Source of the DNA: Sabellastarte sp. h YS-2021
Taxonomy: Eukaryota; Annelida; Polychaeta; Sabellida; Sabellidae
Reading direction: 5' to 3'
Assembly: GCA_964017235.1 (NCBI GenBank)
Contig: OZ024928.1
Location: forward strand, 87,415,566 to 87,479,565
DNA: 64,000 bases
The notes beneath the pieces are model-generated. The model was given only the letters and a program-made list of their open reading frames with translations. It was not told where the DNA came from and made no database searches. The stretch's first letter is position 1. Every line of letters starts with the position of its first letter. Of the stretch, positions 11,201 to 62,554 are shown piece after piece. The position numbers were made by a program, and so were the translations under genes.

Positions 11201-14200
11201 AGTTATTAAGTTGGGAAGATTTTGCCAACAAAATAAGTCTTCAGCCTTTTGAACATGTCCAAGGGTAGTAGAAGAATGTACTTTACTAGGCAAGTTATCC
11301 CATAATTTTAGTGCATTGAAGGCAAGACTGGTATTTAATTGAACGCTTGACTAAAATAAATATTAATAGAAATATTTATATAGCTCAAAATTCATAAAAA
11401 TCCCCTAATGCACTGGTATCCCAAAAATTGGGTCACAGTTCAAAACCAGGCAGAGGTATATGACCCAGTGAGGGCCTGACAGGGAGGGATGACTATGGTA
11501 ATGGGTATGCCAATCTGAAGAGCTATATCTTGAGTTGGCTTCTGAAACTGAAGGTGCTATGTTATAAGAATAAAAGACATATTCGAGTGTTTTATGATGG
11601 TTTAAAACTATCGATTGGCTGAATATTAAAGCCACGAAGCCCAAAGGGCTGAGTGCTTTCCTACAGCAGATCGATAGTTTTAAACCATCATAAAGCACGA
11701 GAATTTGTCTTTTATTCCTATTCTAAAATGGTTACATGATATTTTGTTCAAAATCAGTGGTAAATCTTACACAAAAATCAAAACAAATCCAATGCCATGT
11801 TGGCTGTTCCATTAATTAAACATGCCCCAGTAAACATTTTTAGGTTTTGCAAACGTTTGATAGGAAACGTTTGGCAAAGGTTAAAAAATGATGGGTACAA
11901 AAACCATTTATAATAGAATGTTTTTAAAATGTTTTATGTATACCGCTTATAAAACGTTTAATGACAAATGTTAGAAAAACGTTTCAAATGAACATAATAA
12001 TGTCTGAACAATAATGGGTCAGAGGTCAAATTTCAATATCGTTTTAAGGTTGCTCACTAATGAAAATATTATTTTTATCTCTAAAATTGTAAGATAGTGG
12101 CTTAGAAATTGTGTCCCCATTCAATTCTTACTTTTAGGGATTGCATGTGGGGCAATTTTTGACAAAGTCCTCTAAAATCCCCTATTACTGCTCACCGCCA
12201 TCTTTGTTTGGACATGTTTGAAGCTGAAGGTTTAAAAATATGGGTTTAAAAAACGTTTTTGATAAAATGTTTTTAAAACATTTTGACAAGCAATGTTGTT
12301 TAAACATTTTATGATGAATGTTTGAAAAACATTTCCAGCAAAACCTTCATTTCTTCAGCTATTTTATAAATGTTTTAAAAACATTTCTAGTCAAACCTAG
12401 CTCCTTGAATTCTTTTGTAAATGTTTAATAAACATTTTCAGTAAAAACATTTGTATAGAAAATGTTTATAAAACATTTTTTAAACATTACAGCATAAACG
12501 TTTACTTGGAAATGTTTAGAAAACCATAAGATAGGTTTTAAAAATGTTTTGTAAATGTTTAAACCATTTAATTTATTTGTTTATTTGGGGTTTAACGTCG
12601 CTTTCAACACTGTACAGGTCATATCACGACGGGTAGTTGGAGGGGCAGAGGAAACCAGTACATAGAGTTCGCTAGGGTTGTGTACTGTAAACTGCCGACC
12701 AACGGCAAGCAACTACCAGCTTTCCCACTTGAGCCCGTGCGGGGATCGAACCCCGGCCTCAGAGGTGGGAGGCCAGAGTGTTACCACTCTGCCACCGTGG
12801 CCCCTTAAACCATTTAAAAACATTTCTAATGTTTACTGGGCATAGTGATGGATGTGCAAACAGCCTTTTGGTTAAAATATTGTTAGGAAATGCCCCACAG
12901 AATACTGTAATAAATATTAATGAGTAGTCAATCTTTAAATGAAATATTGATAAAAAGCTCAACTGAATTATTTGACTTCATATATGCTGCATATTATTTT
13001 ACCGCCAGTTATTTGTTTACATTTGTATGCGAAGGGACGATGCACACAGAATTCAACAGCGTTGTTTTATTTACCGTTCCATATTGGCGATTTCAGCATT
13101 GCGCAAAAGACATGTTTAAGGTCACTGCGCAGCATACCATTTTAGAATGGGATCTAACAAGTTTTGGTGATTTGAATAACAGAGAGCATAAGAACTGTTT
13201 GACTGGATTTATTCTTCTTGTACATATATACAACTTTTTTTTTCATTTCAGCCCTCATTGGCCTCAGACCGTCCTGCAGCCCATAGCAGTCGCAGTCAAG
13301 CCATTATGTCACATGCCAACCCCCCACCCCCTATGTACAGAGGAGCCCCACCCCTCCCTAGATACCAGCCCCCACCTCAATACTCGCCAGGCCAGGGACT
13401 CAGGGTCTCGGGAGGGAGTGAGTCTTCTGTGTTCACCAGTGGTAGTGGCAACTCCACGCCTGTAGTGCCAAACAGTGTACCATCTCCTCAGAGAACTGGG
13501 TAAGTTGAAGACACATTGTACTTGTAACAATACTTGCATACCTTCATTAAATTCTCACAGGTAGCAGCAATCAAAGCTTCTGCCAATCAAGTTTATATTT
13601 GTAAATACCAACTTTTTATTTTGTTAATTAAACTGACATAGTATAAAGACATATTGTTTCTGGCATCACAGAGTATATATAACATTTAGCTAACATCAAG
13701 GTGATATTTATTGGAATGCACATTGTATCATTTTTAAGTAACATAACATTATTCCTTATGGGAAATTTATTAATAAAAGTATCAATAATGACCTCATCTA
13801 CTGTTTGAAGTCTTGTCAATAAAGTTTCACAAATAATGATTTCAGTCATCACCTTCCCTTTGTACTGAACTGCAAGGGAAAAACACCTCCAAGGATGAAC
13901 TGATATTTAATAAAAATGTTTTAATTGAACTGATATTTGCTTCAAATTAAACTGCATTTGTTACTATATGCCAGGGCAGAAAGTTAGGTCTTGAAGCTTG
14001 TTATATTGTCATTTGTTTGATTAGGTGGTTTAACATATTGTGAATGATGTACATGTATTTTCAGAGAGGTTGCCAGTAATGATCTCAGAAATGCATGGAA
14101 TAAACTGTATGGTCAGGAAGCCAAAGTTCAGAATATCATGTCATCCCAGGTAGTTATCTTTATGTACTACATACAAAAGTTCAGAATATCATGTCATCCC

Positions 14201-17200
14201 AGGTAGTTATCTTTATGTACTACATACAAAAGTTCAGAATATCATGTCATTCCTTGTCGTTATCTTTATGTACTACATACAAAAGTTCAAAATATCATGT
14301 CATTCCTTGTAGTTATCTTTATGTACTACATACAAAAAGTTCAAAATATCATGTCATTCCTTGTAGTTATCTTTATGTACTACATACAAAACCCAGTAGG
14401 TTGTTAGTGTAATTTAAGTGCATTACAAAGTGTTAGGTATTTGCAGAAAAGCTACATTATCACTGAGGGTTTTCACTCAGGTTCTATTTCAGCCATAGTA
14501 AGGAATATTTGTAACTTCAGAAGTGTGGAAATGAGTTCATGAAAGTAAATTTTTGTGTAGTATATGTTTCCGATAATGTATATTTTACTGTATTTCTTTC
14601 TATTTCAGAGTATGGAAAACTTCAGTAGACCCAAATCTCCTTCAAAACAAACCCCAGTGCACAGTAGACAGGGATCCCAAGTGAGTCATCACAGAAGAAG
14701 TAGCCCAATGGGTCAAAGTTCTTCACCTCGTAGTCACAGTTCCAGCAGTCAAGGAGGGATAAGCCCAAATGAAAGCCATCTGCCAAGTGGCCACAGTCAT
14801 ACCCCTTCAGCATCTCTGGACAATACCAAGAGCTCCTGTGATTCTATCCCTGGAGGCCACGTGAATTTAGGATACCAAGGAGTAACAAACAGCAAGAGTA
14901 ATTTTAGTAGCAGATACCCTGAGGATAAACACAGTAGCCAGCCAATCGTGAATGGTGTCAATGTTCAGAAATCTCCAGTAAGGACGGGTGCGTCTTCAGT
15001 ATTACCCAGTTCACCAAATATAAATGTGATCTCAGGATACCAGAATAACAGCAGTGGTAGAATTGGACATATTGATCAACAACATAATCAAAGACCAAAA
15101 ACACCTGTTTTAACTGAACAAAGATCAAGAACTCCAACAAGTTTTGATCATCAGAGACAGACTTCTTATCCCAATTATGATCAGCAGTCCTATCCAGCTG
15201 GTAATGCAAGACAAGTATCAAATCCTCAACTGAATGTTCAGAGTAAACCAGTGACACAGTTTAACAGTGTGGATATGAGACAGGCTGGTAATGGGCAAGA
15301 TATCTTAAACAACAGTGATAAAAGACAATCTGGATACCCAGTGAGTCAGTTTTCTGACCAAAGGACATCAGGATACAGTAATAATTCTGCATTTGTGCAG
15401 GAACAAAGACCTAAGACCCCTGTTGGGCATGAACAAAGACCAACAACTCCACATGAGCAAGTATCAGACGTTTCAGTACAACAGGGCTTGCCACTGTCAA
15501 ATGGCTCATCAAAATCAATAAGTCATGTTGATGGTCCTGCAAATCATGGTGCTAACATACCTCAGGATGTACAATCATACAAAGTCGACTCATTAGGCAG
15601 ACCTACAAATGCAGTACAGCAGAGAATGGAACAACTGAAACAAAAGTCCAAAGAATCTCACAAGCAAGCTCATGAAAATATCTACACTGGTCAGGAGTTT
15701 TCAAAATCAGTCCAGGCCCAAGGCATTAATGGTGTCCATATGCGACAGAAGTCACAGGAAGAACATTTGCAGATGCAAGAATTAACCAACAGAAATTCTT
15801 TGCCATCAATGCATACCACCACAGAACAATTACAAGAGTCAAAGTCACCATATTTAAACAATCATAAACTTAGAGGAATAAATTATCCTCAAGAACTTCA
15901 GAGACCTGGAGCTCATGATCTCAGTGACAGATCAGTCACCCCTCCCTTACCAGCATTGTCTCCTGATAATTCCCCTCCTATAACTCCTCCAGAATCACCA
16001 GGGCATCTTGTTCAACAAAGGACTCGTGCTCAGTACTTGCCCCATAACAGTAATGAACATAATTTGGTACAACAACCGGCAAGGGTGAAGCCTCCATCTG
16101 GCCGGAGGCAAGGCAAGAAAAATGGATATATGGGAGTTAAAAGTAAAAAGACTCACCCAAATCGACATGGTTCACGAAATATTCCCGGTCATTCTAGTCA
16201 TTCAAGGAGTTCTCATTCAAGTAAGTTAAACTTTTGTAATAGTTAATTTTGTACAATTTTCAGGAAGTTCAAAGAGATTGGAATTCAAACATTACAGGTG
16301 ACATAAATTATTTTACAGATGAAAATGTTTTGGCACTGCATCAGATCATATTTTTGTTCAAAATTTGCTGCATTTTTAATCTGTTTTCAGTTTTATTTTA
16401 TTCCAAATGAATAATTATATTTTTGTTTTACTGGATTTTCATCTACTTCATATATATGTTACAGTAAAGTTGTGTAACCAGTAATTTCGCAACTTTACTG
16501 TAACATATACACAAGATCAGAACCTTTGTTTATTCAAACACAATTTCAAAAAACATTTAGTATGTTGCAAAGATAATAGGAAAACATCCCGAATGACAAA
16601 TACGGAAAAAATGTATCACGAATGAAGATAACAATATTATACGAGTGCGCAGCACGAGTATTATATTGTTAATCTTCATGAGTGATATATTTTTTTCTGT
16701 ATTTGTCTGATGAGGGATGTTTTACTTTTATTATCCACCATTCGTATGCATTATGGGTGAAATAAGATGCATATTTAATAAAAGTATTTGACAAAGGCTA
16801 TCAAAAAGCACAGGCAACAGTTAATATAAAAACGTCAATCTTTAACTTGCAATATCTCCATTATTTCTGAATAGATTTTAATGTAATTCACATGAGCAGA
16901 AGCGCTGTAAGAACAGCTTTCCAATGATATATAATACATATTTGTAAGTTACATACTTTCTGAGATATTGTTGAAAAACTGGAAGTTATTCACGCTCATT
17001 ATCCATAGTACCAGGGCGCCGGTGTATACAAAAAAATACATCCCGGTCTGTATTTCCCCGTATTTAGGGCAAATACGTCGCGTGGTGGATAATAAATAAA
17101 CAGTTTCCCTCAGCTAAAATAAGCTCTGACATCTATAAATGCATGGATTTTTTAAAAAAAAATGAAGCTTTAGACAGTCTACACTTTGGAAATTTATATT

Positions 17201-24182: not shown

Positions 24183-24870
24183 ACAATTCCAATTCCAATT
24201 CAACTTTTATAGCGCTTAATCTCTGTCGAAGTGACAGACTCTAAGGCGCAACATCATAAGCATAGTTACAAAAATCATTGTCCTTGTCCATAGCTATGGT
24301 CGACATCACGGAGAACGCCATATGAGGTGGAAAATACTAAGGAGGATAAGCTTGGCAGAATAGGTATGCCTTAAGATTTTTTCTGAAGGAAGCAATGGAA
24401 GTGGCAGATCTTACATTATCAGGGAGTTCATTCCATATTTTGGGAGCATCATATGCAAAGCTTAGACCAAACTGCTTTGTGGATTTGTAAATAGATGGTT
24501 GGTATTGAGGAACATGTAGAATTATACCATCAGATTGACTCAACCGAGTATTATAGGCACATTGTCTAACTTTGAAAAATGGGCTGAAATATTTTGGACA
24601 GTTAGTATGTAGGTATTTATATACCAACAAGGCAGTCTTGAAGATGCAACGGTGCCTTATGGGTAGCCAATGAAGGGCTTTTCTTAGTGGAGTGGTGTGA
24701 GAAAGACATGCGGTTCTGCAAACAATTCTGGCCAGACTGTTTTGAATGCATTGTAGCTTGCGTAGGTTAGCAACAGATAGACCCCTAAACAAGGAGTTAC
24801 AGTAGTCAAGCCTACTGCCCACAAGTGCGTTTGCAGCCGTAAGAGCAGCATCACGAGTCACAATCTCTAA
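24183..24870 (-). mobile_element. 5'-truncated LINE, reverse-transcriptase C-terminal region
   Basis: A 174-codon open frame on the - strand starts TRDAALTAANALVGSRLDYC and ends SFRKNLKAYLFCQAYPP. The motif SRLDYCNSLF and the LHWLP segment are typical of the region after the catalytic core in L2/CR1/Jockey-type LINEs. The 3' tail is a short (GGAAT)n run at 24183-24205. It faces the LINE at 23901 tail to tail with only ~20 bp between. Confidence 0.9.
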
Positions 24871-24960: not shown

Positions 24961-25594
24961 CGTAAACCAATCCAGGGCAAAACCCCACACTGTCAAAACC
25001 CCATCATTTATAACCCCACCAGACAAAACCCCACTCAGATAGAACCCCACTCATTAATTTGATCTATGGATAAATCCCACTTTTGAAAACATTTTCCAAC
25101 AAAGTTTGAAGATGACAAATAGTTTTTAAGATGTAGATCTTTTTAAAAAGTATAATTATGTAATTAAAAAATATGAGTTTTCAAGGATGTTAAACAAAGG
25201 TACAATTCTTCAATGCAACTGGTCACATCAATTATAGTTAAAGTGTTAGGGTTTGAAGTGCACTCTAGATTAATTCTTAATTCTGCTAGCTACTCGGGCT
25301 TTAATGATTAAAGGAGCAGTTAAGTCTGCTAGTGTTTGAAGTGTGTTCAGACATGAACATGCCAAACATATGCCCAAGAACCCCGCTTCCCTGAGTGACA
25401 TACTGTGTTCTTCATCAATAAAGAATGTATCAGTGTCTATTTCACATAGATAAAAGAAAATATTTTGTTTTTAAATGAATAGTGGGGTTTTGTCCTAATT
25501 CTCATTTATCTGAGTGGGGTATGTCCAGTGGCGTTTTGAATGATGGGGTTTGGTCTGAGTGGGGTTATGCGCAGTGGGGTTTTGTCGGTTTACC
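24961..25594. mobile_element. Foldback-like element with AAAACCCCAC subrepeats
   Basis: The left arm (24961-25060) starts CGTAAACC and holds about six AAAACCCCACT-like units. The right arm (25480-25594) holds the reverse complement (GTGGGGTTTTGTC units) and ends GGTTTACCG. The centre is AT-rich and non-coding. No target duplication could be fixed. Confidence 0.75.
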
Positions 25595-29725: not shown

Positions 29726-29758
<33 letters not shown>

Positions 29759-35037: not shown

Positions 35038-35148
35038 TCTGTGACAGACATATAAGATGGTGTTTATTTTTATGGTATTTATATCTTGTCAAAAATGATG
35101 TATGTAAGAGTAGAGCAAAATATGTGTTCTAAGAATAGGAATTTTTTT

Positions 35149-35605
35149 GTTCACAAAGATTTTTATTGTTAGAATATTCTAAGAATTGATTTAAATCTAA
35201 GGCTGGCACATAGCATGCTTAACTTAAGAAAAAAAGTGGTTTTGGTGATTATAGTGCAGCAACTGATTGCAAATCGACATCCAGAATGGAGTGTTACATA
35301 TTAAGTTGTCTATTGCGTGTACTGTAATGAAATGCAGCCTCTTTATATTATTTCAAAATTTCTAAATTTCTGTTCACATGTGCCAAGATCTGCATTCTTG
35401 GAATTTTTCTTAGAATTACTCTTAGTCTTAGAAAAATTCTAAGAATTGCATACATTTCCTTTTACTTCTATTCTTAGAATTATTCTTAGGTAAGAATTAT
35501 TTGTGAATAGGATTTTATTCTAAGAATAAGAAAATTCTTAGCATAGAATTTTTCTTAGACTTAAGTGTAATTCTAAGAAAAATTCTAAGAATCTTTGTGA
35601 ATACA
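35149..35605. mobile_element. Foldback-like MITE with TTCTAAGAA subrepeats
   Basis: GTTCACAAAGAT at the left mirrors ATCTTTGTGAATAC at the right. The interior, especially 35395-35600, is packed with TTCTAAGAATT and AATTCTTAGAA units that pair with each other. It is non-coding and lies just upstream of the Nkx2.2 start codon, about 110-570 bp away. Confidence 0.75.
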
Positions 35606-37391
35606 GACCCTGGTCTGAATTGACTACCACCACAAACTAGTTTTGTTTTAACATATTTTTTCATTATATTTGTAAAAAAAAATGCCTATATATGATCCTA
35701 ATGTTTATGCTCTTGACAGCGCTGTTACCTCTGCCAAGAAAGTATTATATTTTGACGGTTTGTCTGTTAGCAGGATTACGTGAGTACTACTGGCTGGTTC
35801 TTCAGAAGATGAGTATTCATCCAACTTAGATTTCATTGCATTTTAAGAGTGATCTTGATCACCGTCTGGGCACTTAAAAAATCTGCCTTGGCAGAAGTAC
35901 ACACTCTTAGGGTGCCCTTGTTGTCTCGGCCATTGGGAGATAATCTCGAGATAGTGGAACAGGGGAATTGACAAAACAGTACTGATGTGCTCTTTCTGCA
36001 GAATGCTTGAAAGTCTAGTGATTTATGAAGACTGATAATTGTATCCCAAGGTAGAAAAATGGACACTGGGTTTCCTCTTCTCATTAAAAAGGGGTGGAAA
36101 ATATAAAAGCCCCCTCAATCGCATCAGGCTAATCAGCCGATAATAGAGGCACGTGTTATGGAGAGATATAATCTGCACTGCTGTTAAGTGGGTTATTTTT
36201 TCCAAATGCAATAAAATCTTGTCAGTTCGCGGTATTATCGCTCACAACAATGGGGGCTTTTTCCAAATAAAAAAACTGAAAGTGGCCACGCTTATATCAG
36301 ACAGGTTGAAGATGTAATTATTGCTGGGAAATCCATTGTCTTTATAACCTTGCCTGTCCAATTTTGTGGCAAACAGACAACAGGTCAATTGTCCCAGGTC
36401 ATAAAATTCTAACCTGATCCATCCTTCACTGGTCAACCATGCAATTAAATGACTCATAAAGAGACGAACATATTATTAAGTAATTATTGTCACCTAGGTG
36501 TTTCATTGGACTTATTATTATGATAGTCATTGTTATTTTTATCATTCCAAAATCTCAGTTTATAGTTCATTTACTCCTTATTGGGACGATGATTTAATAA
36601 AATTGTTATTTTTGGCCAAACAAATTGATGAACTGTAAACAAAATTGTGTGTACTTGTGCAATAATTATTGATATTAAAAAAGTGCAACTTATATTAAAA
36701 ACAGATTGTGTCGGGAAAATTGAATATTTATAATGAAAGTTGTATAATGACAATTAAAGCTGACAATAAAAGGAAAGGCAATAGAAAACAATCGAATTTA
36801 CGATAATATCTCCTGGCTTGGTTATTTTCACACAGATATGCCGTGAAATACCACAAAATGAGGGTGGATATGAATTAAAACCCTAGCCAATGAGATGGTT
36901 GATACAAAGGTTAGGATTGGCAATATGTATGTTGACTGGTAATGTGCCATGGAGTGCTGATTTCATGTAAAACTAATATCACCCCCACCCCCCACCCCCC
37001 ATTTAAAATTCCACTAATTTGCTAATTAGTTAAAAAAAATTTATTCAAAGTATATTCTTAAGTTTTGCATATGTCAGTGCAGCTTCCGATTAAAATAAAT
37101 CCATGATGGTTCACTTAAAGTTTACAATGCATATGTATGTTGTTCATATCTGACGGCTGGATCGCTACCTCTGGGCTTGTGTCAGCAACTGTATAAATTT
37201 GAACAATACTGATGTATACATACAGTATTTATCCTTCATTATAGTCATATGTAGTCATATACAGTGCATACTGCAAAAAATAAAAAAGAAACAATTGTTA
37301 CCTACACATCAGACTGGTTAAAATGTCACTTTAAAATAACTACATCAACAGGAGTTATTACGTCAGCTGTTGCTCAATAAAATGGTTTATT
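35606..37391. other. Upstream region of Nkx2.2, candidate promoter
   Basis: No gene. The part at 35830-36460 has higher sequence complexity and GC content than its surroundings and would hold the promoter if a 5' UTR exon exists. TTAAGTGG at 36184-36191 matches the NK2 consensus T(C/T)AAGTGG. An (ACCCCCC)n run is near 36980-37000. Confidence 0.4.
36184..36191 (+). promoter_or_regulatory. Candidate NK2-type binding site
   Basis: TTAAGTGG about 1.15 kb upstream of the Nkx2.2 ATG matches the known NK2-class site. It could serve auto- or cross-regulation, but an 8-mer is expected often by chance. Confidence 0.25.
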
Positions 37392-38603: not shown

Positions 38604-39163
38604 TCGAGTATAGGACATAACCCTCCCCCCCCCCCCCCCCCCCCCCCCGGGCTACCGGGGTAAGGCATAAGCCCCCCTATGTAGGACTAAAGCCCCCCCT
38701 TGCAATATTATCCAACAAAAATGTGCTGCATGGTACCTTTAATCACCTGTTCACAGGTGTTATTAAATCTGTTCATGTGTGTTACCTGTAAACTAGAGGT
38801 ACCATTGATTACAGTGTGAATAGAAATGAATGATATATGGAAAACTAGCAATCAAGAAACATTGCAATTATGCAATAACAATCAAGCCAAATAAATATCA
38901 CCTAAACATCCTTTAAACACATTCTTACAGGTCTTTTTAAATGTGCTGATGCCTGTTAGAGGCACCATAATTTAAAATTTAGCCAGATTAAGATGCCTTA
39001 ACATAACCTATGAGTGTACACCCTTTTAAGATACATAAAAGACATTAATTTCAAATATAAAAAGGGGGTAATTAAAATGCAAGGGGCGGGGGGCTTTGCC
39101 CCACCTCTCTGAAAAATTGGGGGGGAGGGGGGGGGGGGCTTTTGCCCTACTCCCTCATAATGT
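38604..39163. mobile_element. Foldback-like element with AAGCCCCCC subrepeats
   Basis: The left arm has GCATAAGCCCCCCTATG and ACTAAAGCCCCCCC beside a long poly-C. The right arm has the complement (GGGGGGCTTTGCCCC and GGGGGGCTTTTGCCC). The centre is AT-rich. Long homopolymers may have been mis-sized in the assembly. Confidence 0.6.
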
Positions 39164-45330: not shown

Positions 45331-45346
45331 TTTTGGCCATCCCGGT

Positions 45347-45989
45347 GTAACGCAACATAATGCATCCCCATAAATATTGTATCCCTACCTTTAATCTTTT
45401 GGAGATGCATTATTTTTCTGCATCATTTTGCATCCCAAATAGTTTGGGTATTGGGGGGTGCAGAATTTGCATCAAAATAATGTATCCCCATCAAAAAAGT
45501 GATCCCCTTATCAGAGGTATTGCCTCGCAAGGTATTAATAATAGGGGTGAGGTGTGTTAATATGTTGATTGGAATTGAATTTAGTGGGCCTTAGATAATG
45601 ATCAGAGTCATATAGACAACTATATGATTATCATGAAACATTATTTCTTGAGAAACAAACGATTTACTACATATAAAAATATTGAAGGGTGATTCTATAA
45701 AAAAATTCACCTTTTATCAACAAGGGTTTATCTTGACAAAAACTTGGCATAATAACATTTTTTCCATGTTTAACACAAATAATTTTTTCTTATATTATTA
45801 TTTTTAAAATAAAATACACAAACATCGTATAATATAGTTAAGGGTCAGGAGATGCATTATTTTGCAAAGGGGATGCACTTTTTTGCAAAGGGATACACTA
45901 TTTTTCAAGGGGATACAAAATATCACAAGCCCCTTTGCAAAATTTTGCATCCCCACACACTTTTTAAGGGATGCATTATTTTGCGCTAC
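45347..45989. mobile_element. Foldback-like element with ATGCATCCCC subrepeats
   Basis: GTAACGCAACATAATGCATC on the left mirrors GATGCATTATTTTGCGCTAC on the right. Each arm repeats units such as AATGCATCCCC (left) and GGGGATGCA(T/C)TTTTTTGC (right). The centre, near 45560-45840, is AT-rich and non-coding. No clear target duplication is visible. Confidence 0.78.
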
Positions 45990-47546: not shown

Positions 47547-49351
47547 TACGAAAGAGTATTAGCGCCACCAGTGGGGTTGTTTTGTTGGAAATATCTGTGT
47601 TGGCGTGTTACAATATACATAATTTTCCACCAACAGAGATGAAAACATAGCCAACACAGATGATATTTTCGCCAACACACATGAAAACTTCAACAACACA
47701 GATGATATTTTCGCCAACACTGATGATATTTTCGCCAACACAGATGAAAAATTCACCAACACAGATAATATTTTCGCCAACACAGATGATATTTTCGCCA
47801 ACGCAGGTGAAAACACTGCAAGTTACTATAAATAGTCTACTGTACATAGAATAGTCTGCCCTTGAATAGGTTAATACCAATTACCAAGTGATGACAGTTC
47901 ACACTTTTTTTATTTATTAAATACAGTATTACAAATGTATTAATAAAATACATAAATTATAAATTTGACTACTACTGAGTAATGTCCTAAAAAGTCTATA
48001 CAGAAAAGTCAGGTTAACGTAAAGACATATGAATAATGAATGAGTTTAAGAAATATATTTACAAGTTAAGGTGACCATAAAATAAGTTGAAGTTCAATAG
48101 TTTATAATCACCACAATATTAATAGCCAATGAGTTTAAGAGCATGTACATTACAAGTTAAAGTGACCATAACATAATTTAAGGGAATATTTAATTTTAGG
48201 GAATTTTTATGTATAAAGTTCAACGAAAAATCGAATAACTGAAGTCATACTGGGATTGACTTTAGGGTCCTCTAATATCTGGGTCTTTAGTAGTTCTGAC
48301 AGTTTGAGGTAACCCTAACGTAACTTTTGTACAGTTAACTTAACATTAACATGTAAATATTCAGTTATATGTAATTATAGTCATTATACTTGTATTGTCA
48401 CTCCATTAAGGGGCAGTGACCTATATTTGACCTTTGCATTAGTGAACTGTGACCTTTATTTGACCTTCAAGTTGTACACTGGATGGTATAAAGTAGTAGT
48501 CTTATTATCTTTTATTTTTACTTTAACCTTTATACTATGTTGCATATATTTACATGTTATGTATAAACTTAATGCTCCGCATCTTGTTGTTTGCATGAAG
48601 GGGATTGAAGATCATCTTGTTGGCTAAATTTCCATCTGTGTTGGCTAAAATATTCATCTTCCTGGGCCAAAGTTTTCATGTGTGTTGGCTAAAATAGCAT
48701 CTGTGTTGGCTAAAATGTTGTCTGTGGTGGCGAATTTTTCATCTGTAGGTGTTGGTGAAAATACTATCTGTGGTGGCTATATTTTCATCTGTGTTGGCTA
48801 AAGTATAATGTGCGTTGGCTAAAATTTTGTCTGTGGTGGCGAATTTTTCATCTGTAGGTGTTGGTGAAAATACTATCTGTGGTGGCTATATTTTCATCTG
48901 TGTTGGCTAAAGTATAATGTGCGTTGGCTAAAATTTTGTCTGTGGTGGCGAATTTTTCATCTGTAAGTGTTTGCGAAAATATCATCAGTGTTGGCTATAT
49001 TTTCATCTGTGGTGGCTATGTTTTCATCTGTGTTGGCTAGTTTTCCATCTGTGTTGGCTATATTTTCATCTGTGTTGGCGAAAATATAATCTGTGTTGGC
49101 TATTTTTCCATCTGTGTTGGCTATATTTTGATATGTGTTGGCGAAAATATCATCTGTGTTGGCTAAAATATCATCTGTGTTGGCGAAATTTTCATCTGTG
49201 TTGGCGAAATTTTACTCTGTGTTGGCGAAAATATGATCTGGGTTGGCGAAAATGTCATTTGTGTTGGCAGGAAAACTTTGATTGTGTAACTCGCCAACAC
49301 AGATATTTCCAATAAAAACAACCCCACTGGTGGCGCTTATACTCTTTCGTA
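47547..49351. mobile_element. Foldback transposon with ~66-bp TIR and inverted GCCAACACAGAT arrays
   Basis: The ends TACGAAAGAGTAT and ATACTCTTTCGTA extend as ~66-bp inverted repeats with few mismatches. Inside, the left arm (47630-47815) has about nine ~22-bp units GCCAACACAGATGATATTTTC. The right arm (48640-49290) has about thirty inverted units ATCTGTGTTGGCGAAAAT, including a higher-order doublet at 48710-48970. The ~800-bp centre is AT-rich without ORFs. Apparent ORFs over the arrays (repeating FHLCW) are artefacts. It is non-autonomous and its transposase source is unknown. Confidence 0.92.
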
Positions 49352-51720: not shown

Positions 51721-51951
51721 ATGTGTCTCAGTTAAAATTTCTTTGTGTATCCAGACTTTTGTAAATTCTAGTGCACTACTCATGTCTCTGATGGCTTTGC
51801 ACTCTTGCTAGGGGACCAAAACTCCTTTTGGGCTTGTTTTATTTGGTACACCCTGATTTTTCAAAAAGTTGTGGTTATATGCTACGGGTGGGGTATGTAT
51901 ATCTCTTTAATGGTTCTACTAACAAAATGATACACCTGGGCATGTTGTGCA

Positions 51952-52426
51952 TAAACTTAAGATCGGTAAAATCTTAAGATTTGCTTGCTCAAACTTAGGA
52001 TCCTAAGTTTAGGCAAAAATCTTAAGATTTCTGCCCAATCTTAAGATTAGGCAGCCCAAACTTAAGATGTTGCCTTGGACTGTGATTGGCCTCTTATTGG
52101 TAGTCTATTGTTGGCTGATTGGTTGATTATTATGATTGATCAATGGTTGTGTGAAGAGGGCCTTTGTTTCTTATTATAATTGCAATTATTGCAATAATTT
52201 CAATATTTTCATATTTTTATATACATTACAGATATATTGACATTACATAACCCTCATATTATCCTTAATTATCTTTATTTATCACTAAACAAGTATAGAG
52301 GATTTCATCTTAAGTTTGTGCAGCAAAATCTTGAGATTTTTTTTGCACAATCTTAAGATTTCTGACTAAACTTAGGATCCTAAGTTTGAGCAAGCAAATC
52401 TTAAGATTTTACCGATCTTAAGTTTA
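51952..52426. mobile_element. Foldback-like element with ATCTTAAGAT palindromes
   Basis: TAAACTTAAGATCGGTAAAA on the left is exactly mirrored on the right, and the match continues about 75 bp through AACTTAGGATCCTAAGTT. CTTAAGAT units repeat inside each arm. The centre (52070-52310) is AT-rich and non-coding. Confidence 0.88.
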
Positions 52427-52535
52427 GGCCTACCAGGCATACTACTGGCTTATATAAGCTTCGCCCCTTGGTACTGATACCTGCATGTAACCTGTATAAA
52501 AGTAACACTAGGAATATTATACAGTAGAATTTATT

Positions 52536-53960
52536 GTATCCACCGGAAGCATCCGGTGGATACTTTGGTTTAGCTGCCGCGTAGAGACATTTTCGCCGTT
52601 AACGCTCTAAAAAGAAAATTACACCAGGTAGATGCACCAAATTTGCAGGATATCTTCATTGGGGGGTAATTAAGCTTCTCTGGGAAGGAAATTAGCCTCA
52701 TTCTGAAATCCAAGATGGCCGCCGCGGGCATTTCTTTGAAAAATATCTACATTTTTCTACTGGCTGTTTCTCATAGGTAGAAGGTTGAATGTCTTCATAG
52801 GTGATATGTATAACAGATATATATGTCCTCTACAATCTTGCAGAATTTGACCTTGAAGCTCTTACTTCAAGGCCGTCCACGGAGTGCCAAAGCAACCCAC
52901 ATAGCACACTTTGCAATGTGAAACCAACCTATAGGAAATCATGTGCTGCGAATCTTTTGATGTGGTCAGATTTGACCTTGGACCCCTCCTTCAAGGTCAA
53001 ACGAGGATAGCCAAACTTAAAAGTTCTTATAACTCGCTTATTATTGGTCCTAGAGGTTTGGGATGGTAAACCAACCTATCGGAAATCATGGGCTGGGAAT
53101 CTTCTGGTGTGGCCGGATTTGACCTTGGGCCCCTTCTTCAAGGTCAAACGAGAATAGCCAAACTTAAAAGCGCTTATAACTCGCTTATTATTGGTCCAAG
53201 AGACTCAGGATGGTAAACCAGCCTATATGAAATCATGGACTGGGAATCTTGTGGTGTTGTCGGATTTGACCTTGGGCCCCTCCTTTAAGGTCAAACGAGG
53301 ATAGCCAAACTTAAAAGTGGTTATAACTCGCTTATTATTGGCTCTAGAGGTTTGGGATGGTAAACCAACCTATAGGAAATCATTGACTGGGAATCTTCTG
53401 GTGTGGTTGGATTTGACCTTGGGCCCCACTTTCAAGGTCAAACGAGGATAGCCAAACTTAAAAGTGCTTATAACTTGCTTATTATTGGTCCTAGAGATTT
53501 GGGATGGTAAACCAACCTATAGGAAATCATGAACTGGGAATCTTCTGGTATGGTCAGATTTGACCTTGAACCCCTCCTTCAAGGTCAAATGAGGATAGCC
53601 AAACTTAAAAGTGCTTATAACTTGCTTATTATTGGTCCTAGAGGTTTGCAATGTGAAACCACCTTATAGGAAATCATGGGCTGGGAATCTTCAGATGTGG
53701 TCAGATTTGACCTTGAGGCCCTCCTTCAAGGTCAAACGAGGACAGCCAAACTTAAAAGGGTTTATAGCTCGTTTATTATTGATCTTAGAGGTTTGCAATG
53801 TGAAACCAACTTGCAGGATATTGTGGGCTGGTAATCGTCTGATGTCAGATTTGACCTTTGGCCCCTCCTTCAAGGTCAAACGACGGTTCACTGGCTTTGG
53901 TAAGTTGTCTTTCCGGTGGATACACATTTGCATCGGTTCTCCGATGCGTAGGTCTAGTTT
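52536..53960 (+). mobile_element. Helentron-like non-autonomous element with 147-bp minisatellite
   Basis: A 13-bp sub-terminal inverted repeat GTATCCACCGGAA (52536-52548) is exactly mirrored at 53911-53923. The left copy also forms a local palindrome with the adjacent TCCGGTGGATAC. A 3' hairpin GCATCGG-TTCT-CCGATGC lies at 53930-53947 just before the presumed end. The interior is a seven-unit tandem array. This is the pattern of Helentron-derived (HINE-like) elements. There is no Rep/helicase. Confidence 0.75.
52840..53900 (+). repeat. 147-bp tandem array, about seven units
   Basis: The landmark TCAAGGTCAA recurs at 52991, 53138, 53285, 53432, 53579, 53726 and 53870: five exact 147-bp steps, then 144. 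Units include CTTATAACTCGCTTATTATT and GATTTGACCTTGGGCCCC. The period is a multiple of three, so long open frames arise (e.g. 53611-54021) without coding evidence. Confidence 0.96.
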
Positions 53961-54905
53961 ATATATGGTGTTAGCATATCCCCAATTCTTGTTTCAAAAC
54001 ATCAACATAAATAGCGTATAAATGGGGTCATGGCAGCAAGAATCCTATAAAGCCTCGGGACTAACACAGTAGCTTATTTTTTTTATCTTTTTTCATTAAT
54101 TTTACTAGAAAATTAAATATGGAACAACAGATATCTACTTCATTACACCCCTCTCCCATCCTTCACCAAAAAATGTGACAATAATTTTTTAATCATGTAA
54201 CAAGCGAAAATTAGTCACAGATATTAAATCCTATTTCTGAAAAGTAACACTTTATTACAGAACACAAAACATGCTTCTGAAGAAATGGATGGGGGATACA
54301 ATTTATCCATCAGGTGCCAACAAAAGCAGTCCAATTTGTTGCCTATGAAACCAAGTGTTCACTTGAGCCTCTGAATGGAACACCCTTCCCATCTTAATAT
54401 CCAGTCCTTTTGATTTCTACCGAAATGAACCTGTCCATTGACAAAAAAAACCGTCAGTTGTATTTAACAATGTGATGGCAAAACACCCCCAACTAGATAG
54501 AATATTAAAAGAGATGTTTACACGCACGAATAAACAATGTTTTCATTTTGAGTAAATTGAACAACCATAGAGCCATGCGCAGTTAAAATGTCCCGTATGT
54601 TACGCTTCATTACCGCTCACTGGTATTATATTTGTGGACTGGTGTGTGACTGTTATTTTTTCATAACATTTTAGCCTTTCCCAAGGCGTTAGCTTTTTTA
54701 TAGACTTTTGTTCATAATTTTTTTTTGTTCTCATATTCATTCTGGATGGTTGATACTGCAATATTTTTATCTCCCCACACATATCTTACTACCCCTTTCG
54801 GAAGATAAGTGGAGGCTAAGACTGTGTCACTTTTAACATTAATTACTTGGCGAGTAATTACTTAAATCAATCCTATAGAAATCTCACTCAATCTTACTAT
54901 ATAAA
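53961..54905. other. Intergenic, no gene recognised
   Basis: AT-rich, no repeat or motif recognised. Confidence 0.65.
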
Positions 54906-55135
54906 ATGCTGGCATATAATCTGGTATATAATGCATTTGAACATTTGGCCAGGGGACGTTTGGTTGTTGGATATTTGGCCATGATTTTTTGTGCCCCCAT
55001 CCATTTCGTCAGAAGGTAATACTTAAAAGTCAACAGCAATATATCCAACCCTCCAAAAGAGTCACACGCTAAATGTTCACCAGCTAAATGTCCATTGGCC
55101 ATATGTCTAAACATCTAATGGCCAATTGCCAGTGC
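54906..55135. mobile_element. Small foldback-like element with ACATTTGGCCA subrepeats
   Basis: The left part has GAACATTTGGCCAGGGGACG and GGATATTTGGCCA. The right part has the complement-type units GCTAAATGTTCACC, GCTAAATGTCCATTGGCCA and ATGGCCAATTGCCAG. At 230 bp it is the smallest of the set. Confidence 0.65.
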
Positions 55136-58100
55136 TCCTAAAGGTTGGTTCTATTCTTGACAAGTATGATGGCACCTCAGTGGGCTAGTGATTGTGAAAT
55201 CTGGAAAAAGACCACTTGACTCCGGTTACTATGGTTGTTGTTTCAAATCCAGCTCATGGCATCAGATGACTAATATGACCCTTGCTGTGACAAAAGTCCC
55301 AAACTGTGATTGTTGAATTAAAATGAAGTCTGTAGGAGACTTCCGACAGGCTAGCAATTCCTAATCACCGTCATAAAACGTCTTTATCGGAATCATTTCA
55401 TTTTGTCCTCCATTCTGGAAATAATAAAAAACACAGTTTGATGAGTAAAAAGCCTCTTTTCTTTCTCCCGGACGACAAAATAAGGCAATAACATGTATTA
55501 CAAATTAGGGCAAATTGTTTGCGGAGTTTAAATAATTATCCAATTTCGGGGTGATTGATGTCGGGACGGACTTTACCTCGAATATCACTCCGCGAGTTAC
55601 CTAATGGCGGCCGCTAAATTTGAGAGTAATTAATTGGCTTGAAGAACATTATGAGAAAGGCATGAAACGAATAGCTGATGGCTTCTAAATCATTTAGGAG
55701 TGTGGTGAAGGGGAATCACACAAAGTTACCTGAAAGGTCCCCTGAGTGATTTCAATTAGGCTAAATGAAAAGCATTACAGCCGGGGATGTCATCAGTTTA
55801 TTTGCTAAATGTCCCTTCTTTATTGCCAATAGAATCTCGTCAAATCACTACAGAAAACAGAACTTTATGATGAGTCCCAACAGTTTTTAGATGCAGCTAG
55901 TGGTGTATGTGTTTATTTAGTTTTTTTATTTACTTTTGCCCCTAATTTTATTGATGGATGTAAAACGTTCAACAGGAGATGATAAAGGGAGGTATTAATT
56001 GGACAGAAACGCTCTTTATAGCTTATTTTGTCCTTTGTTACTTATCAGCAAGCTAGTTTTTCTAGCAAAGTGTATAAATATTTAATTATTATTCCACTTA
56101 GCAGTTTCATCTGGACAAAAGCTGTTTCAAGGAGGGGAGGGGAATGCCATATCCTCACGTGGTTTTTTTATCATTATCAGGGCACTTATGTGTAAAGTTT
56201 TGTGATTGTTGAGGGGAAAAGAGGTCAAACATTTTTTTATTATATTAGTTATAAGGGAAAGTTAAATCTGCAAAACAGTTTTTACAAAATAGTTTTGCAA
56301 AACAGTTTTTTCAAATAAGTTTGAGTTCAAAAGTTTTACTATACACTTCTTCTGTACATGCCTTTTATATTACCTTATATTGTGCACTACACTGGAAGTG
56401 TAAGCTGTTAAAATAGATATAATAGATTTATATATTGATAATTAGATTTTAACACTGGATAGTGTATGGTATTCAAGATGGTAAATTTTATGCTGTACTA
56501 ACACATTTCATTTTACTTATACATTTAAACTTCTCGTTGGTGCAATAGAGAAGATTAAATTAAAATATGCAAACGCTTGATACCACAAACCAATGCGTTG
56601 TTGTATTTTTAAGCACTTATTTTCTTTTTCTAGTGCATTAGCTTTTGTAGTGTTTAAAATGACATACGAAGTTTTTATTTGTGAAATCAACAATGGTTTT
56701 GATACATTTGACATTAACATACTCTCAAGCTATAAAACCTCCTAGCTTGACCAACCACCTTGAAATCCTCATGCAACTCTTTGTAAAGTTTGTAAACCTT
56801 TTTGATTCTGTCGCTGAAGAATTATTTTTGTGATCGGGTTATGTCCTGATATGAACTTAAATATAAATAATATAGCAGTGAGGTAGGCCTAAATTACCAG
56901 AAAGCAATCACACATTGACTGACACAAAACCAAAAGCTGTATCATGACAGCTGTACACATTTCAAAACATTCATAGCTTCTTTAATAGCTTGTCTGAACA
57001 TTTATAACCTTTTTGTGTAAGTTAAAGGAATAAAACCTATACATCACCTTTACAAATGGCTGTACTATGGTGGCACCTAAATTTCTTTTCAATGTGTCAT
57101 CAAGGTGAGACCGAGGCTTTAAAATACGCTAGTGGTCTGCAGTCCACACTGAAGTTTGAACCAGTCATAGACCATTGTATTACACATTGAATAACAACCA
57201 CCTACAGAGCTCTTCAATCAAGCACTTTGGTCACTCATTCTCCTGTATGAAGTGCATCTTCACCCCTATTTTTCACAGATGATCAGCTCTATTTAGTGTC
57301 ATTAATACCCAATGCATTACCTGTAGAAGGAACTTTGTCCCAGTATAATAGACTTCCTTATATTGTAGGATCATTGTTGGTAATTGACAAAATCTGAGGC
57401 CCACAACAAGGGTAATTGCCTTATTGTTTCCTACAACCATGGAAGCACTTTCCTGGAGACTGTGTATTAAACATTAAACTTATTTGGCCATCTAAGTAGC
57501 TTATTCAAGGCAAAATCAAACCTTAGCAATTTCCATAATGCTTAGATATCTGTAATAGGATATTGCAAAACGCAAGCATCAAAAGAATTGTCCAGAATCA
57601 TATATATTCATTGCACAGGTGTCTTAACCATGAAGACTTCTGGTAAATAAGGAGATTAAGTGGAACATCCCTATTTCAAAGATGAGTTGGCTCTATAAAT
57701 GGACCTTCATGCCTGACAAATGTTCATATGAATATACCATTTACTTGTGGTATCATAGAATTTACGATAGCAAGATGAATAGAGAAATATGAACTGTAGT
57801 TAGTAAGGGAGAAAATCATCCTGTTAGAGCCAAAGGACGTTTCTTTTTGTTGGAATTTAAAACTACCCTTAAATTTTACACATGGACACGTGTAGTGGAG
57901 ACTATCAAATACAAAATTAAACTGTTAATAAACAAGTTAACTTGAAAACCTTTTTTCCCTGAAAACAAAGATTTACCAGATAATTCAGGTATCTTAATAT
58001 ATTATTTAATTTAGAATGTACATTGTAGTTAAATCTGTTTTCCAAAAGTAAAAAAAAACCACTTCTTTTTTCAATTGTATTTTTTTTTTCAATTTGTACA

Positions 58101-58955: not shown

Positions 58956-60811
58956 TCTTTAAACATGTTTTGAAAACCTTTGTGATAGAGCACTTCCCCC
59001 GGAGTATGAATGATCAATCTTTTTAGACATGAGGCAGTTCTGTCTTATTTTTAGGAAGTTGCAACTTATGTTTTGGTGCTGTGACTTTCTTTGTTCACAG
59101 AATGCTCTCTTTCCCCAAAGAAGATTAGTCCTTGGGTGCCCCTGATTATTATGCTATCGTGGCACTTTTCCAGACAGTGTATTTACTCTTCAAAACATTT
59201 TTGAAAAATTGTCCTCAATGCTTTACTTTACAAATTGTGTCGAATAAAAAAACCTAAATGCACCCCACCCAAATGCAAATCCCACCCAATCATAGCGAAT
59301 TCGCTCTACCAGAATATGAGACACATTAAACCACAACCATAAGTAGATTGTTCAATTATAGCTTTGCTACCCTGGCACATAAAACTGTGACCTAGGCATT
59401 ACTGGACCAGAGTGGTCAGGTGAATTGTTATGAATTACCTTATGAGTCATAAGGGTCGAGACCAGGAAGTTTTTCAAATCTTTCTCAACAGGATAAAAAA
59501 GTGGAACAGCAGTATAACTTATTCTTATAGAATGATATATTTTTATTTTAACCATTTTTAAATAATTTTTATGAATGCTAATTTTCACAGTAAGAAATTG
59601 AGAATCCCCCCAAATAAACAATTTTTGACCAATAAACGCCAAACTCTTCTGGAAGGGAAAATTGCAAGCCACATTCAGAAATGGTAACCACACAGATGGA
59701 AACTTAAGATTTGTGAAAAAAGAGACACAAATCACAAAATCTCTATCTGGATTCAGTGCCTTTGACAAATGATTCACTTAAGTGCTTTAATATGATTCTA
59801 CAATTTATGGACATAGTAATATGAAGAATTATCTATATATTAGGTTACTATGGAGACAACCACAAAATTCAAACAAGCACAGTTTGGACAGTCATTTAAC
59901 TGAAATCTCAGTTCAAATACAAAGTTGATATCTTTTGGTGGTAAAAATATATTAAGATGATAATCAGATATAGAAATATTTTTATTTTCATTAAAGTACA
60001 GCTCTCTCCAGTTTGTTTTGTATTGATAATCTTTTGACCCATCTTAACTACACAAGTACAGTCCAAGCTTCATTGACTGATATTCCCCAAACTGAGAAAC
60101 AGGGTCTCAGTGATGACCATTTATCAACATCCCTGAGGTTCTTTAGCCTGCCACTGGGGATAGGGCTCAATCAAAGGACTACAATTTTAAGTGGTTATTC
60201 GAGCCAATATCTATTTACACGTATCTGGGATTGAACCCAGGGCCTCTGTGTTCATAGGAAAGTGTGTTACAGTAGATAACAGTCCAAATAATGGAAAAAG
60301 ACAGACACTGTACGCATAAGAATATGTAATATTTGATCTAAAGAGTGTGGCTCTGAAAACTAATTCCAAATGCATATTTGAATATTTTATATTAGTATTA
60401 ATATCCTGGATAAAATTGGAGTGTAATGAAATCAACTTCTTGGAAATTGTTGAAACTTTACTCTGTTTAAAACAATGGTATCCTTTTACAAAAGTATTAG
60501 GAGCTGTATTTCAAGACACTAATCACAAATACAAAGAAAAATTCTTACATTTGAATTCAACCCAATACAATGGACACTGGGTCTACCTCTGTATATATGG
60601 TGTTTCTATGGAGACGTAAAATTACAGGGATATAGAAAAAAATTCAAATCATGAAGAATTTTTACGGTTGACATGGAATAAACATAATTATAAATTTACC
60701 TGCAATATGAATAAAACCAAGGGGTTTTCTTATATTTCTATTGATATTTTGTGAACAAATTAATATCATATTTTTTTCTTGTAAACGTCCTCAACTCTAA
60801 GGAATAAGTGA
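58956..60811. other. Intergenic, no gene recognised
   Basis: AT-rich. The open stretches at 59367-59777 and 60013-60234 have no known motif. Confidence 0.6.
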
Positions 60812-62554
60812 TGTTGGAGCCCAACTTAGGAGTCAGCCCATCTTAAGATGGGCTATAGCCCAACTTAGGATCCGAAGTTGGGTAGCCCATCTTAAGATGG
60901 GCTAGCCTATCTTAAGATGGGCTAGAACATATCAGCCCAACTTGAGATAACAAAATTCAAGAATTATTTTTATGTGGAATATAATATTTACTATTTAAAA
61001 GGGAATTATTTTTCAGGAAAAAGATGATATTAACAATGATAAGTTTAACTGACCCTTGTACAGAGGTATTTTGCACTTCTTTTTTATTTTATAGCAATAT
61101 GTTTAACATATCTAACCTCAAGAAAAAGTGTTTCATTGCAGAAACTAAAATGAATTTTGTTTCCTAAGCCTTGAAAGCATTAAAATATTCCTTTGATGTT
61201 GATTCAATTGTCTTTCATTGGAATAATTTCCTAATTGGATTTGTGCCTATTGTTTCAACATTCTATTGATGTTGATTTGTTTCACTTGGGGTGGGTGAAG
61301 CACACAATAGGAAATACCCCAAATCATAAAGTGAAACAAATCAACATCAAAGTAATCTCTCAATACAATGAGGCTTAATTCTATCAAACCTATAAGGGGG
61401 AAAGCCAAATATAGTGGGTGATTTTATGGGTGAGCCTGATTATATATATTTTAAGTTTAACAACAAATTAATAAAATTACTTTTTTAAATTATTAAATAG
61501 CATTTAAACAGCATTTATAAAGCACTTTATCTTTGGAGCTCAGTTACATTAATTAATTGGAAAATGTAATTAGATCCAAACAAATTAATTTGATTAGTCA
61601 ACACACTGATGCATAAAATTGATGAAAATGATAAAATACACATTGTATATTAAATTGGTGTTTTCTGATAGGTTATATGGGTAAATGTCCATTTAAGACT
61701 TAACATTAAGCATTTAAAAATTATGATTAAATCAACCAGTTTGTTTACAAACATGTAAAATATCACACCAAATACCTTAAAGAGTCTTACAGCAATGCCC
61801 AATTAATCCTGTTAGCTAATCACTCAACCAGAGGTGAAAGAAATCAAGTACAAAGAATGCTAGAACAAAAGACAAATCTAAAAGTAATCCAGTTTCCCAA
61901 GTCATAGGCATAGTCAAACAAATCAACTTGAAAGGAATGTTGAAACAAAAGATTCATCACAATATAATCCAGTTGCCTAATCACTCCCCACAAATTAAAC
62001 AAATCAAGTTGAAAGCAGTGGTTCAACAATAGACACCTTATGACCTAAACGACCCTCCCATTGTCAAATTAACTGAGACAGAGTTTTGGAACAATAAGGT
62101 GATTAAGATTAATCCTATCTATGCACTATAATCTAAAGAAAAAAAGTAACATTTAAGTAGAAAAATAAGTAAATAATATCATTTCAATTTAAAAAATAAA
62201 GACTATGTGTGCAAATTATAAGTTGGGCTAATAACTGGAACCAAATCTTAAGATGAGATAAGCACAAAAAAATCTAAAATTTAAATATAAGTATTTAAAT
62301 AAACTAGCACAGTTATATTCATAATTAAAACTACCACTGGAGTATGACATAACAAATTAATATTAAACTAGCTGGTTAATATTAAATTTTAGCTTAAATC
62401 ATTCCTGAGTTTAGTTATCCTAAGTTGGGCTAATATGTTCCAGCCCATCTTAAGATGGGCTTAGCCCATCTTAAGATAGGCTACCCAACTTAGGATCCTA
62501 AGTTGGGCTATAGCCCATCTTAAGATGGGCTGACTCCTAAGTTGGGCTCCAACA
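60812..62554. mobile_element. Foldback transposon with ~125-bp TIR and GTGA duplication
   Basis: TGTTGGAGCCCAACTTAGGA at the left is exactly mirrored at the right, and arms of about 125 bp match almost throughout. Each arm is built from AGCCCATCTTAAGATGGGCT palindromes and an AACTTAGGATCCTAAGTT core. GTGA flanks both sides (60808-60811, 62555-62558). The 1.5-kb centre is AT-rich with no transposase. Inner repeats near 61220-61350 (GTTGATTTGTTTCACTT and its complement) form a further inverted pair. Confidence 0.92.

Follow-up and report, generated by a model that had tools for sequence, protein, structure and literature searches.

Foldback-like elements of about six lineages with one design in a 64-kb stretch of an animal genome

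Nine places in a DNA stretch of 64 kb, hereafter the window, were listed in an earlier note as foldback-like elements, each with inverted ends built of short tandem or palindromic units that face each other across a non-coding centre. The locus raises the question how one design comes to recur with such different units, and whether it is renewed by a mechanism acting on the arms or inherited within families. Foldback-type denotes an architecture and no lineage.

Inverted repeats and repeat families of the window

The window contains 12 non-overlapping inverted repeats with an ungapped score of 18 or more, versus none in each of 20 dinucleotide shuffles, and the density pointed out in the earlier note is thus not that of shuffled sequence. 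Seven of the 12 fall within six of the listed elements and the remaining five are located elsewhere in the window. Clusters of mirrored or palindromic 8-mers are found in 62 of 421 sliding 900-bp windows (none in 19 of 20 shuffles and two in one), 16 of which start at 13.5, 36.9–37.5 and 52.4–53.6 kb and correspond to other repeats. This 8-mer scan picks up seven of the nine listed places and misses 38604 and 54906. Eight of the nine have a centre flanked by inverted arms that contain tandem or palindromic subrepeats, 38604 being the weakest case.

When each element was used as a query against the window's own genome (1.79 Gb) and target duplications were tabulated, as the earlier note had suggested, eight proved to be multi-copy families, here A to H (Table 1), with ends that can be defined from the copies and duplications of 2, 3, 4, 6 or 9 bp by family. 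The ninth, at 54906, was dropped since the search finds only the element itself and one 60-bp, 82% match. Loose, unscored candidates number 1713 for A, 586 for B, 1709 for C, 372 for D, 416 for E, 620 for F, 226 for G and 6380 for H, and 40 copies per family were scored out of these lists. Near-identical copies exist in two of the eight families. Among the starts first listed, 51952 is corrected to 51943, 11821 to 11826, 38604 to 38606, 45347 to 45346 and 24961 to about 24968, and the copy at 35149 lacks its left end and begins at about 35127. In five families (C, D, F, G and H) the ends of the window copy are damaged or not clearly defined.

Table 1. Positions of the element copies and of two internal arrays in the window.
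Feature	Position	Strand	Remarks
Family H copy; tip CCCAGTAAAC..; numerous AAACATTT/AAACGTTT units	11826..12571	+	
Family D copy; left tip GAATCCAGGG-like, right tip GTTTACC; AAAACCCCAC units in opposite orientation in the two arms	24968..25594	+	
Family C copy, TTCTTAGAA / TTCTAAGAA units	35127..35609	+	left end truncated; CTG after right end
Family G copy; left tip GAGTGTAGGACATAAGCC-like; AAGCCCCCC units	38606..39159	+	right arm shortened
Family F copy, left tip TGTAACGC after CCGG (45342-45345), AATGCATCCCC units	45346..45989	+	
Family E copy, tips TACGAAAG..CTTTCGTA	47547..49351	+	GGATTG duplication (6 bp) at 47541-47546 / 49352-49357
Left array of GCCAACACAGAT units, family E copy	47622..47815	+	Tandem Repeats Finder
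Right array of GCCAACACAGAT units, family E copy, inverted, about three times longer	48612..49268	-	Tandem Repeats Finder
Family B copy, tips TGTTGTGCAT / TGTTAGGCCT	51943..52435	+	GGCA duplication at 51939-51942 / 52436-52439
Ninth listed element, no repeat family	54906..55140	.	single copy in own genome
Family A copy, tips TGTTGGAG..CTCCAACA	60812..62554	+	GTGA duplication at 60808-60811 / 62555-62558

Ends and target duplications of the eight families

Clean duplications surround three copies in the window itself, namely those at 60812 (GTGA), 51943 (GGCA) and 47547 (GGATTG), and an automatic tip-plus-duplication scan of the window alone was convincing only for the same three. None of the six remaining places reached 14.2, the highest score among 60 random region pairs, in a scan where inner palindromes were also scored as false duplications. 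The superfamily placements below are taken from the genome copies, and are read from ends and duplications only.

Families A and B have the ends TGTT..AACA with a 4-bp duplication and appear to be Ginger2-like. The duplication is perfect in 14 of 16 A copies and agrees in three of four bases in the other two (control 2/240), and in B it is perfect in 15 of 22 copies with three of four bases in three more (control 9/462). The tips begin with TGTTG or TGTTA, and among the perfect cases the duplication is preceded by R in 14/14 and 13/15 and followed by Y in 13/14 and 14/15 for A and B, respectively. TGTNR tips, 4-bp duplications and the R before and Y after are likewise described for Ginger2/Tdd (PMC2836005), and the Ginger2 target is RTATAY-like, to which the targets of A and B correspond loosely at the four inner positions (TATA). 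The right tip of the window's B copy is mutated to TGGTAGG. Six A copies, including the one in the window, are identical over 189 bp, a sign of recent activity of this family. No autonomous partner with a Ginger2 transposase was found for A and B in ten long stretches, a search that covered few long copies.

Family F ends in TGTAA..CTACA between CCGG, and the TGTNR tips with a CCGG/CCGT duplication, features given for Ginger1 in the same paper (PMC2836005), suggest that it is Ginger1-like. Judged by eye, CCGG is present at both ends of four of seven fetched copies, two more show one of these motifs (CCGT or CCGG) at a single end, and one is without recognisable ends; in the window copy the last base and the CCGG of the right end are absent. 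The CCGG of F might belong to the inverted repeat. Arms built from subrepeats set A, B and F apart from Ginger2/Tdd and Ginger1 as described there, and the main text of that paper contains neither "palindrom" nor "subterminal".

All four E copies, the window's included, have TA..TA tips and a 6-bp duplication like IS3EU/GingerRoot (PMC10045372), and E is probably IS3EU-like, but unlike the elements in that description it carries arrays in which a 21-bp unit is repeated up to about 31 times.

In 18 full copies of family C the GGCCTGTATTCAC tips adjoin CWG at 17 left and 16 right ends, as in NuwaI of the PHIS superfamily, which has CWG at both ends and whose hosts in the paper describing it include one mollusc (PMC4482050). 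Two of 20 copies gave no end call, and for two others (L022 and L032) the tip was taken about 0.8 kb upstream. A NuwaI-like origin of C is suggested by these ends, with the differences that the tip after CWG is mostly GGC or GGT, where that of NuwaI is usually GGG (PMC4482050), and that the two CWG are identical in only 11 of 18 copies. Some copies have CAG at one end and CTG at the other, which a simple duplication does not fit.

Families D and G have the 9-bp duplications of Mutator-like elements of the Tm1 type. In D the duplication is perfect in six of ten cases, has one mismatch in two and does not fit in two, and is not visible around the window copy; in G it is weak, with at most one mismatch in four of ten, two mismatches in two and no fit in four. 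D and G seem to resemble Tm1, a Mutator/foldback element of root-knot nematodes with 9-bp duplications, inverted repeats that hold a varying number of copies of a short motif, and asymmetric tip motifs outside them (PMC3169594), a superfamily placement from ends and duplication length. Tm1 carries a transposase and a histone-hairpin cargo (PMC3169594), and D and G are likened to it by their layout.

Family H has the ends CCCAGT.. and a 2-bp duplication, with identical 2-bp flanks in 9/9 two-ended copies (one of ten pairs is without a right end), and is given no superfamily placement. Its copies mostly align over query positions 67 to 812, and in the window the right tip is lost where a SINE-like sequence joins.

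The long stretches contain 13 open frames of at least 130 codons; a Pfam scan of the 10 longest found no transposase, its only matches being to reverse transcriptase, LINE endonuclease and leucine-rich repeats. In viral collections the four patterns searched matched 0, 0, 0 and 2 contigs, and in prokaryotic collections two bacterial records have a lone 20-mer.

Inheritance of the arms and the proposed role of hairpins

The earlier note had favoured a mechanism that keeps generating subrepeats within the arms, for example hairpin-mediated slippage, over descent of one family. Descent is evident: each of the eight is a repeat family, and the A arms keep their left and right differences, with identities in 15 copies of 0.980 left-left and 0.972 right-right, versus 0.925 left-right within copies and 0.927 between copies. 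In B, where arm inheritance was judged from the tips alone, the right-type tip is present at 22/22 genuine right ends. One B copy (L064) taken as a case of arm exchange was rejected, being without a right tip in its locus. In A and B the arms are inherited by descent, and whole units have been gained or lost in A, C and E.

It is unlikely that hairpin-mediated slippage or template switching makes and corrects the palindromic arm units. In its favour, the arms of A and B are built of perfect palindromes, the longest of 24 bp, stem-loop models have been published for MITE repeats (PMC8268682), and in one sampled copy (L180) AGCTCA/TGAGTA replaces AGCCCA/TGGGTA, a paired change. Between A and B, matched changes also flank both sides of the common core palindromes, with 56 of 94 occurrences (the window's B copy counted twice) agreeing beyond the core by 2 nt, 31 by 4 nt, three by 3 nt, three by 1 nt and one not at all; coming from two families, these flanks are no proof of paired change and the idea was set aside. 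Against correction stand the palindromes of family C, which in 21 copies show 68 one-sided changes, one that is both-sided but unpaired and one that is compensated, with about 0.3 compensated changes expected. They mutate at 2.7%, versus 3.0% in the rest of the same copies, and a change is kept on both sides in one of 152 predicted pairs. In A, the two arms of a copy have no copy-specific likeness, as 1883 of 2000 re-pairings do as well. A weaker point is that the palindrome-rich right arm of C measures 238–242 bp in 19/19 copies whereas the left arm, of direct modules, varies from 146 to 353 bp in 18; the query held the right arm, so that copies with an altered right arm score lower and may be missing, and the lengths were not kept as proof against hairpins. 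Renewal by hairpins after insertion, as proposed in the earlier note, is not supported by this decay of the C palindromes, which is compatible with hairpins having had a part in the original formation of the arms.

One design in about six lineages

The units had been said to differ completely, which does not hold for all of the families. A (60812) and B (51943) share the core palindromes TCTTAAGA and ACTTAGGATCCTAAGT as well as 13 of 21 tip positions, and D (24961) and G (38604) have both tips in common (14 and 15 of 21 positions), while all other left-tip pairs match at 10 or fewer of 21 positions. With two related pairs among eight families, about six lineages remain that share one design. 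The recurrence of the architecture stressed in the earlier note is upheld, and since these lineages differ in ends and duplications, the architecture arose more than once.

With equal numbers of words tried for ends and centre, the commonest 10-mer occurs 19 versus 6 times in A, 13 versus 3 in B, 9 versus 2 in D, 34 versus 4 in E, 7 versus 4 in F and, weakly, 4 versus 2 in G. No clear end excess is found in H (15 versus 12) and C (12 versus 12), because the arrays extend to the middle or the copy is truncated. Multiplication of the motif is thus end-biased in six of the eight window copies, one of them weakly, and the motif is mirrored in both arms. The eight elements are probably non-autonomous DNA transposons of the cut-and-paste type, from about six lineages, with end motifs multiplied as putative transposase-binding sites under selection. 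Transposases encoded elsewhere would mobilise the families in trans, and a short terminal-repeat motif would be multiplied inward, tandemly or as palindromes, and mirrored across the non-coding centre. Each multiplied motif might act as an extra transposase-binding site, favoured as raising transposition, and slippage or unequal exchange between repeats may lengthen and shorten the arrays. The common design would then be a convergence of transposons under one selective pressure, not a product of hairpin renewal after insertion.

Similar arms are known from Galileo and Foldback of the P superfamily, which are long, have internal tandem repeats and vary in repeat number between arms and copies (PMC3573991). 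A role as secondary transposase sites has been proposed for tandem repeats of this type, and multiple sites are regarded as a convergent, possibly selected trait (PMC3573991). Galileo is a P element with a 210-bp repeat (PMC3573991), whereas several lineages here have much shorter units, and none of the lineages is placed in the P superfamily.

A host-wide mutational bias, in which frequent short tandem duplication builds arrays anywhere and transposons merely display them, has a similarly low probability to hairpin correction. Tandem Repeats Finder does detect arrays outside the elements, with units of 147 bp (52921–53883), 53 bp (14123–14391) and 187 bp (37472–37846), and one D copy has an amplified central unit at 76-bp spacing, but the motif that is multiplied is an end motif in five of the eight elements, and weakly so in a sixth, and an end-biased, mirrored motif disfavours a blind host-wide process. 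One ancient foldback superfamily with arms diverged past recognition, to which the A-B and D-G pairs would lend some credit, is very improbable in view of the differing duplication lengths and left tips.

A wider reading is put forward as a tentative and rather doubtful idea: a general force on the tips of unrelated DNA transposons would in this genome multiply tip motifs inward, forming mirrored arrays, and at least six lineages, Ginger1-, Ginger2-, IS3EU- and NuwaI-type among them, would in this way have become foldback-like independently. It would act in the active lineage, by selection for many binding sites or by a replication quirk of excised ends, and stop once a copy is fixed.

The repeat-built inverted-end design is known, and the foldback literature cited here (PMC3573991, PMC3169594) treats subrepeat-built arms family by family; what is unusual is that so many lineages lie side by side within so short a piece of an animal genome. 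The palindrome test in C already argues, for one family, against hairpin correction of inserted copies. Six lineages with distinct ends and duplication signatures within 64 kb, together with near-identical copies in two families, amount to a natural experiment, with replicates, on why arrays form at the ends of transposons.

Inverted repeats, copies and lineages

The nine listed stretches were read, their arms were aligned against each other, and the window was compared with shuffled sequence. Twelve non-overlapping inverted repeats were found in it and none in any of 20 dinucleotide shuffles, an excess over chance that bears out the earlier note in part; seven of them lie inside six listed elements with five elsewhere. 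Inverted repeats above chance outside the eight elements are located at 2357–3873, 11564–11721, 16453–16509, 46708–46917 and 54274–55015. Clusters of mirrored or palindromic 8-mers were flagged in 62 of 421 windows (16 of the 62 are other repeats), against none in 19 shuffles and two in one; the elements picked up in this way are those at 11.8, 25.0, 35.1, 45.3, 47.5, 51.9 and 60.8 kb, and 38604 and 54906 were not among them. Shortly after the B element a 147-bp unit is repeated in tandem (52921–53883, 6.6 copies).

The animal's own assembly (647 contigs with 1,785,957,881 bases in total; the window lies at G000:C2:87415566–87479565) was searched with each element, the candidates being loose and 40 scored per search. 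Many candidate copies were obtained for eight of the listed elements, here families A (window copy at 60812; 1713 candidates), B (51943; 586), C (35127; 1709), D (24961; 372), E (47547; 416), F (45347; 620), G (38604; 226) and H (11826; 6380). The ninth, at 54906, was rejected as a repeat family, with only itself and one 60-bp match in the genome. The first 189 bp are identical in six A copies including that of the window, and the 39 other scored B copies are 96–98% alike over their left 250 bp, so both families are young; D and G are older, judged by identities of about 71–92% (D) and 70–80% (G) in the longer matches.

Of 21 tip positions A and B share 13, and D and G share 14 on the left and 15 on the right; the D–G values are reached in 37 and 27 of 200,000 shuffles. 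All other left-tip pairs compared agree at no more than 10. Together with the duplication lengths this gives six lineages for the eight elements, rather than nine unrelated elements as first proposed.

Ends and target duplications

Family A has the tips TGTTGGAG..CTCCAACA, and among 16 two-ended copies (that of the window plus 15 of the 20 fetched) a 4-bp duplication is perfect in 14 and retains three of four bases in the other two, against 2/240 matches when the left flank of one copy is compared with the right flank of another. B has the tips TGTTGTGCAT and TGTTAGGCCT, both present in 22 of 30 loci, with a 4-bp duplication that is perfect in 15, has three of four bases in three and is worse in four (control 9/462). 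The perfect duplications are preceded by a purine in 14/14 (A) and 13/15 (B) and followed by a pyrimidine in 13/14 and 14/15, which at these outer positions is like the RTATAY target of Ginger2 in PMC2836005, the four inner bases being only loosely TATA. The same paper gives Ginger1 CCGG-flanked ends, and the F ends TGTAACGC..GCGCTACA are by eye flanked by CCGG in four of seven copies.

E, with tips TACGAAAG..CTTTCGTA, shows 6-bp duplications in 4/4 (GGATTG in the window, GGAAAC, AGTATT and GTATCA), tips and duplications being like those of IS3EU in PMC10045372. At L119/L120 one E copy seems to have inserted, with a 6-bp duplication, into the terminal repeat of a second E copy. The C tips, GGCCTGTATTCAC, adjoin C(A/T)G at 17/18 left and 16/18 right ends, identical at both ends in 11/18 copies; no end was obtained for two of the 20 copies, and in L022 and L032 the left tip was taken about 0.8 kb upstream. 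C is close to NuwaI as described in PMC4482050, the third tip base excepted. At several C loci (e.g. L017, L024, L028) the C and G are kept and the middle base is unlike between the ends, which a plain duplication does not explain.

A 9-bp duplication is perfect in six of ten D copies, has one mismatch in two and does not fit in two; for G, 12 pairs were inspected and 10 were two-ended, four having no more than one mismatch over 9 bp, two having two and four not fitting. In both families the first bases are unlike at the two tips and are followed by a common inverted repeat, an arrangement that PMC3169594 reports for Tm1. H has the tips CCCAGTAAAC..GTTTACTGGG; the right end is missing in one of ten pairs, and the two-ended copies have identical 2-bp flanks in 9/9 and identical 3-bp flanks in 0/9; the family is not placed in a superfamily. 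A SINE-like TTATTTGGGGTTTAACGTCGC sequence (12572–12700 and L138) sits where two H copies are broken off on the right at almost the same point, which may point to a composite element that has spread.

Composition and inheritance of the arms

With equal numbers of words from the ends (the two outer 70 bp) and the middle, the commonest 10-mer of the ends occurs in the element 19 (A), 13 (B), 9 (D), 34 (E), 7 (F) and 4 (G) times, and that of the middle 6, 3, 2, 4, 4 and 2 times. The arms in most of these window copies thus are multiplied end sequence; H (15 versus 12) and C (12 versus 12) do not stand out because the arrays of H extend to its middle and C is represented by a truncated copy. The E terminal repeat has one reversed unit ahead of the array start, and one of the two E arrays is about three times as long as the other. 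Whole units are gained and lost among copies: the A right arm lacks one or more in 3/15 (L034, L035, L052), and the match spans of E copies extend from about 0.35 kb for the whole element to more than 0.8 kb for a left array. In a D copy (G000:C5:16766778–16770874) the central unit recurs every 76 bp across some 4 kb, which may represent a satellite arising from a transposon.

The left arm of C is built from modules in direct orientation, each about 100 bp long and starting anew with the tip, and measures 146–353 bp (n=18, excluding L022 and L032, where the tip is lost or misread) versus 238–242 bp for the palindrome-rich right arm in 19/19 measured (L029 has no end), a contrast biased by a query having the right arm without the full left arm, so that altered right arms rank lower.

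Hairpin-mediated slippage had been suggested as the source of the subrepeats. The palindromes of 21 C copies carry 68 one-sided changes, one compensated (0.3 expected) and one unpaired double; their substitution rate is about that of the rest (2.7% vs 3.0%), and RNAalifold found a change kept on both sides in 1/152 pairs. For C this argues against renewal of the arms from hairpin templates after insertion, though a hairpin step may have occurred when the arms first formed; in A and B, where flank changes are matched and L180 has one paired change, such renewal may have taken place. Left arms of 15 A copies are 0.980 and right arms 0.972 alike, left and right arms agree at 0.925 within and 0.927 between copies, and 1883 of 2000 random re-pairings were as good as the true one, so that the arms are inherited, with no later adjustment of one arm to the other once a copy has inserted. 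B keeps the right-type tip in 22/22 genuine right ends.

Neighbouring frames and mobilisation

Genes and frames near the elements
Feature	Position	Strand	Evidence
Homeobox gene	32954–33799 and 34606–35088	minus	Pfam Homeodomain 3.7e-19, first frame
Frame resembling end of non-LTR reverse transcriptase	24337–24900	minus	by eye, without Pfam match
Frame resembling end of non-LTR reverse transcriptase	28171–28956	plus	by eye; RVT_1 E 0.013, below curated cut-off

The homeobox gene is presumably NK2-like, and if its second frame is the first exon, the C element at 35127 would be some 90 bp away from the probable ATG near 35037. A full-length transposase partner was sought for A and B and not found among the 10 longest of 13 frames of at least 130 codons in long A and B stretches, which gave two reverse transcriptases, one LINE endonuclease, one with leucine-rich repeats and six without a family. 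Foldback-type architecture and its convergence are already in print; no report of such arms in Ginger-, IS3EU- or NuwaI-type elements was found in the literature accessible outside most subscription journals and Repbase. PMC3573991 describes proposed secondary transposase sites within the Galileo repeats and calls the trait convergent. The eight window copies have no stop-to-stop frame of at least 130 codons and must therefore be mobilised in trans, and their extra tip motifs may act as additional transposase sites.
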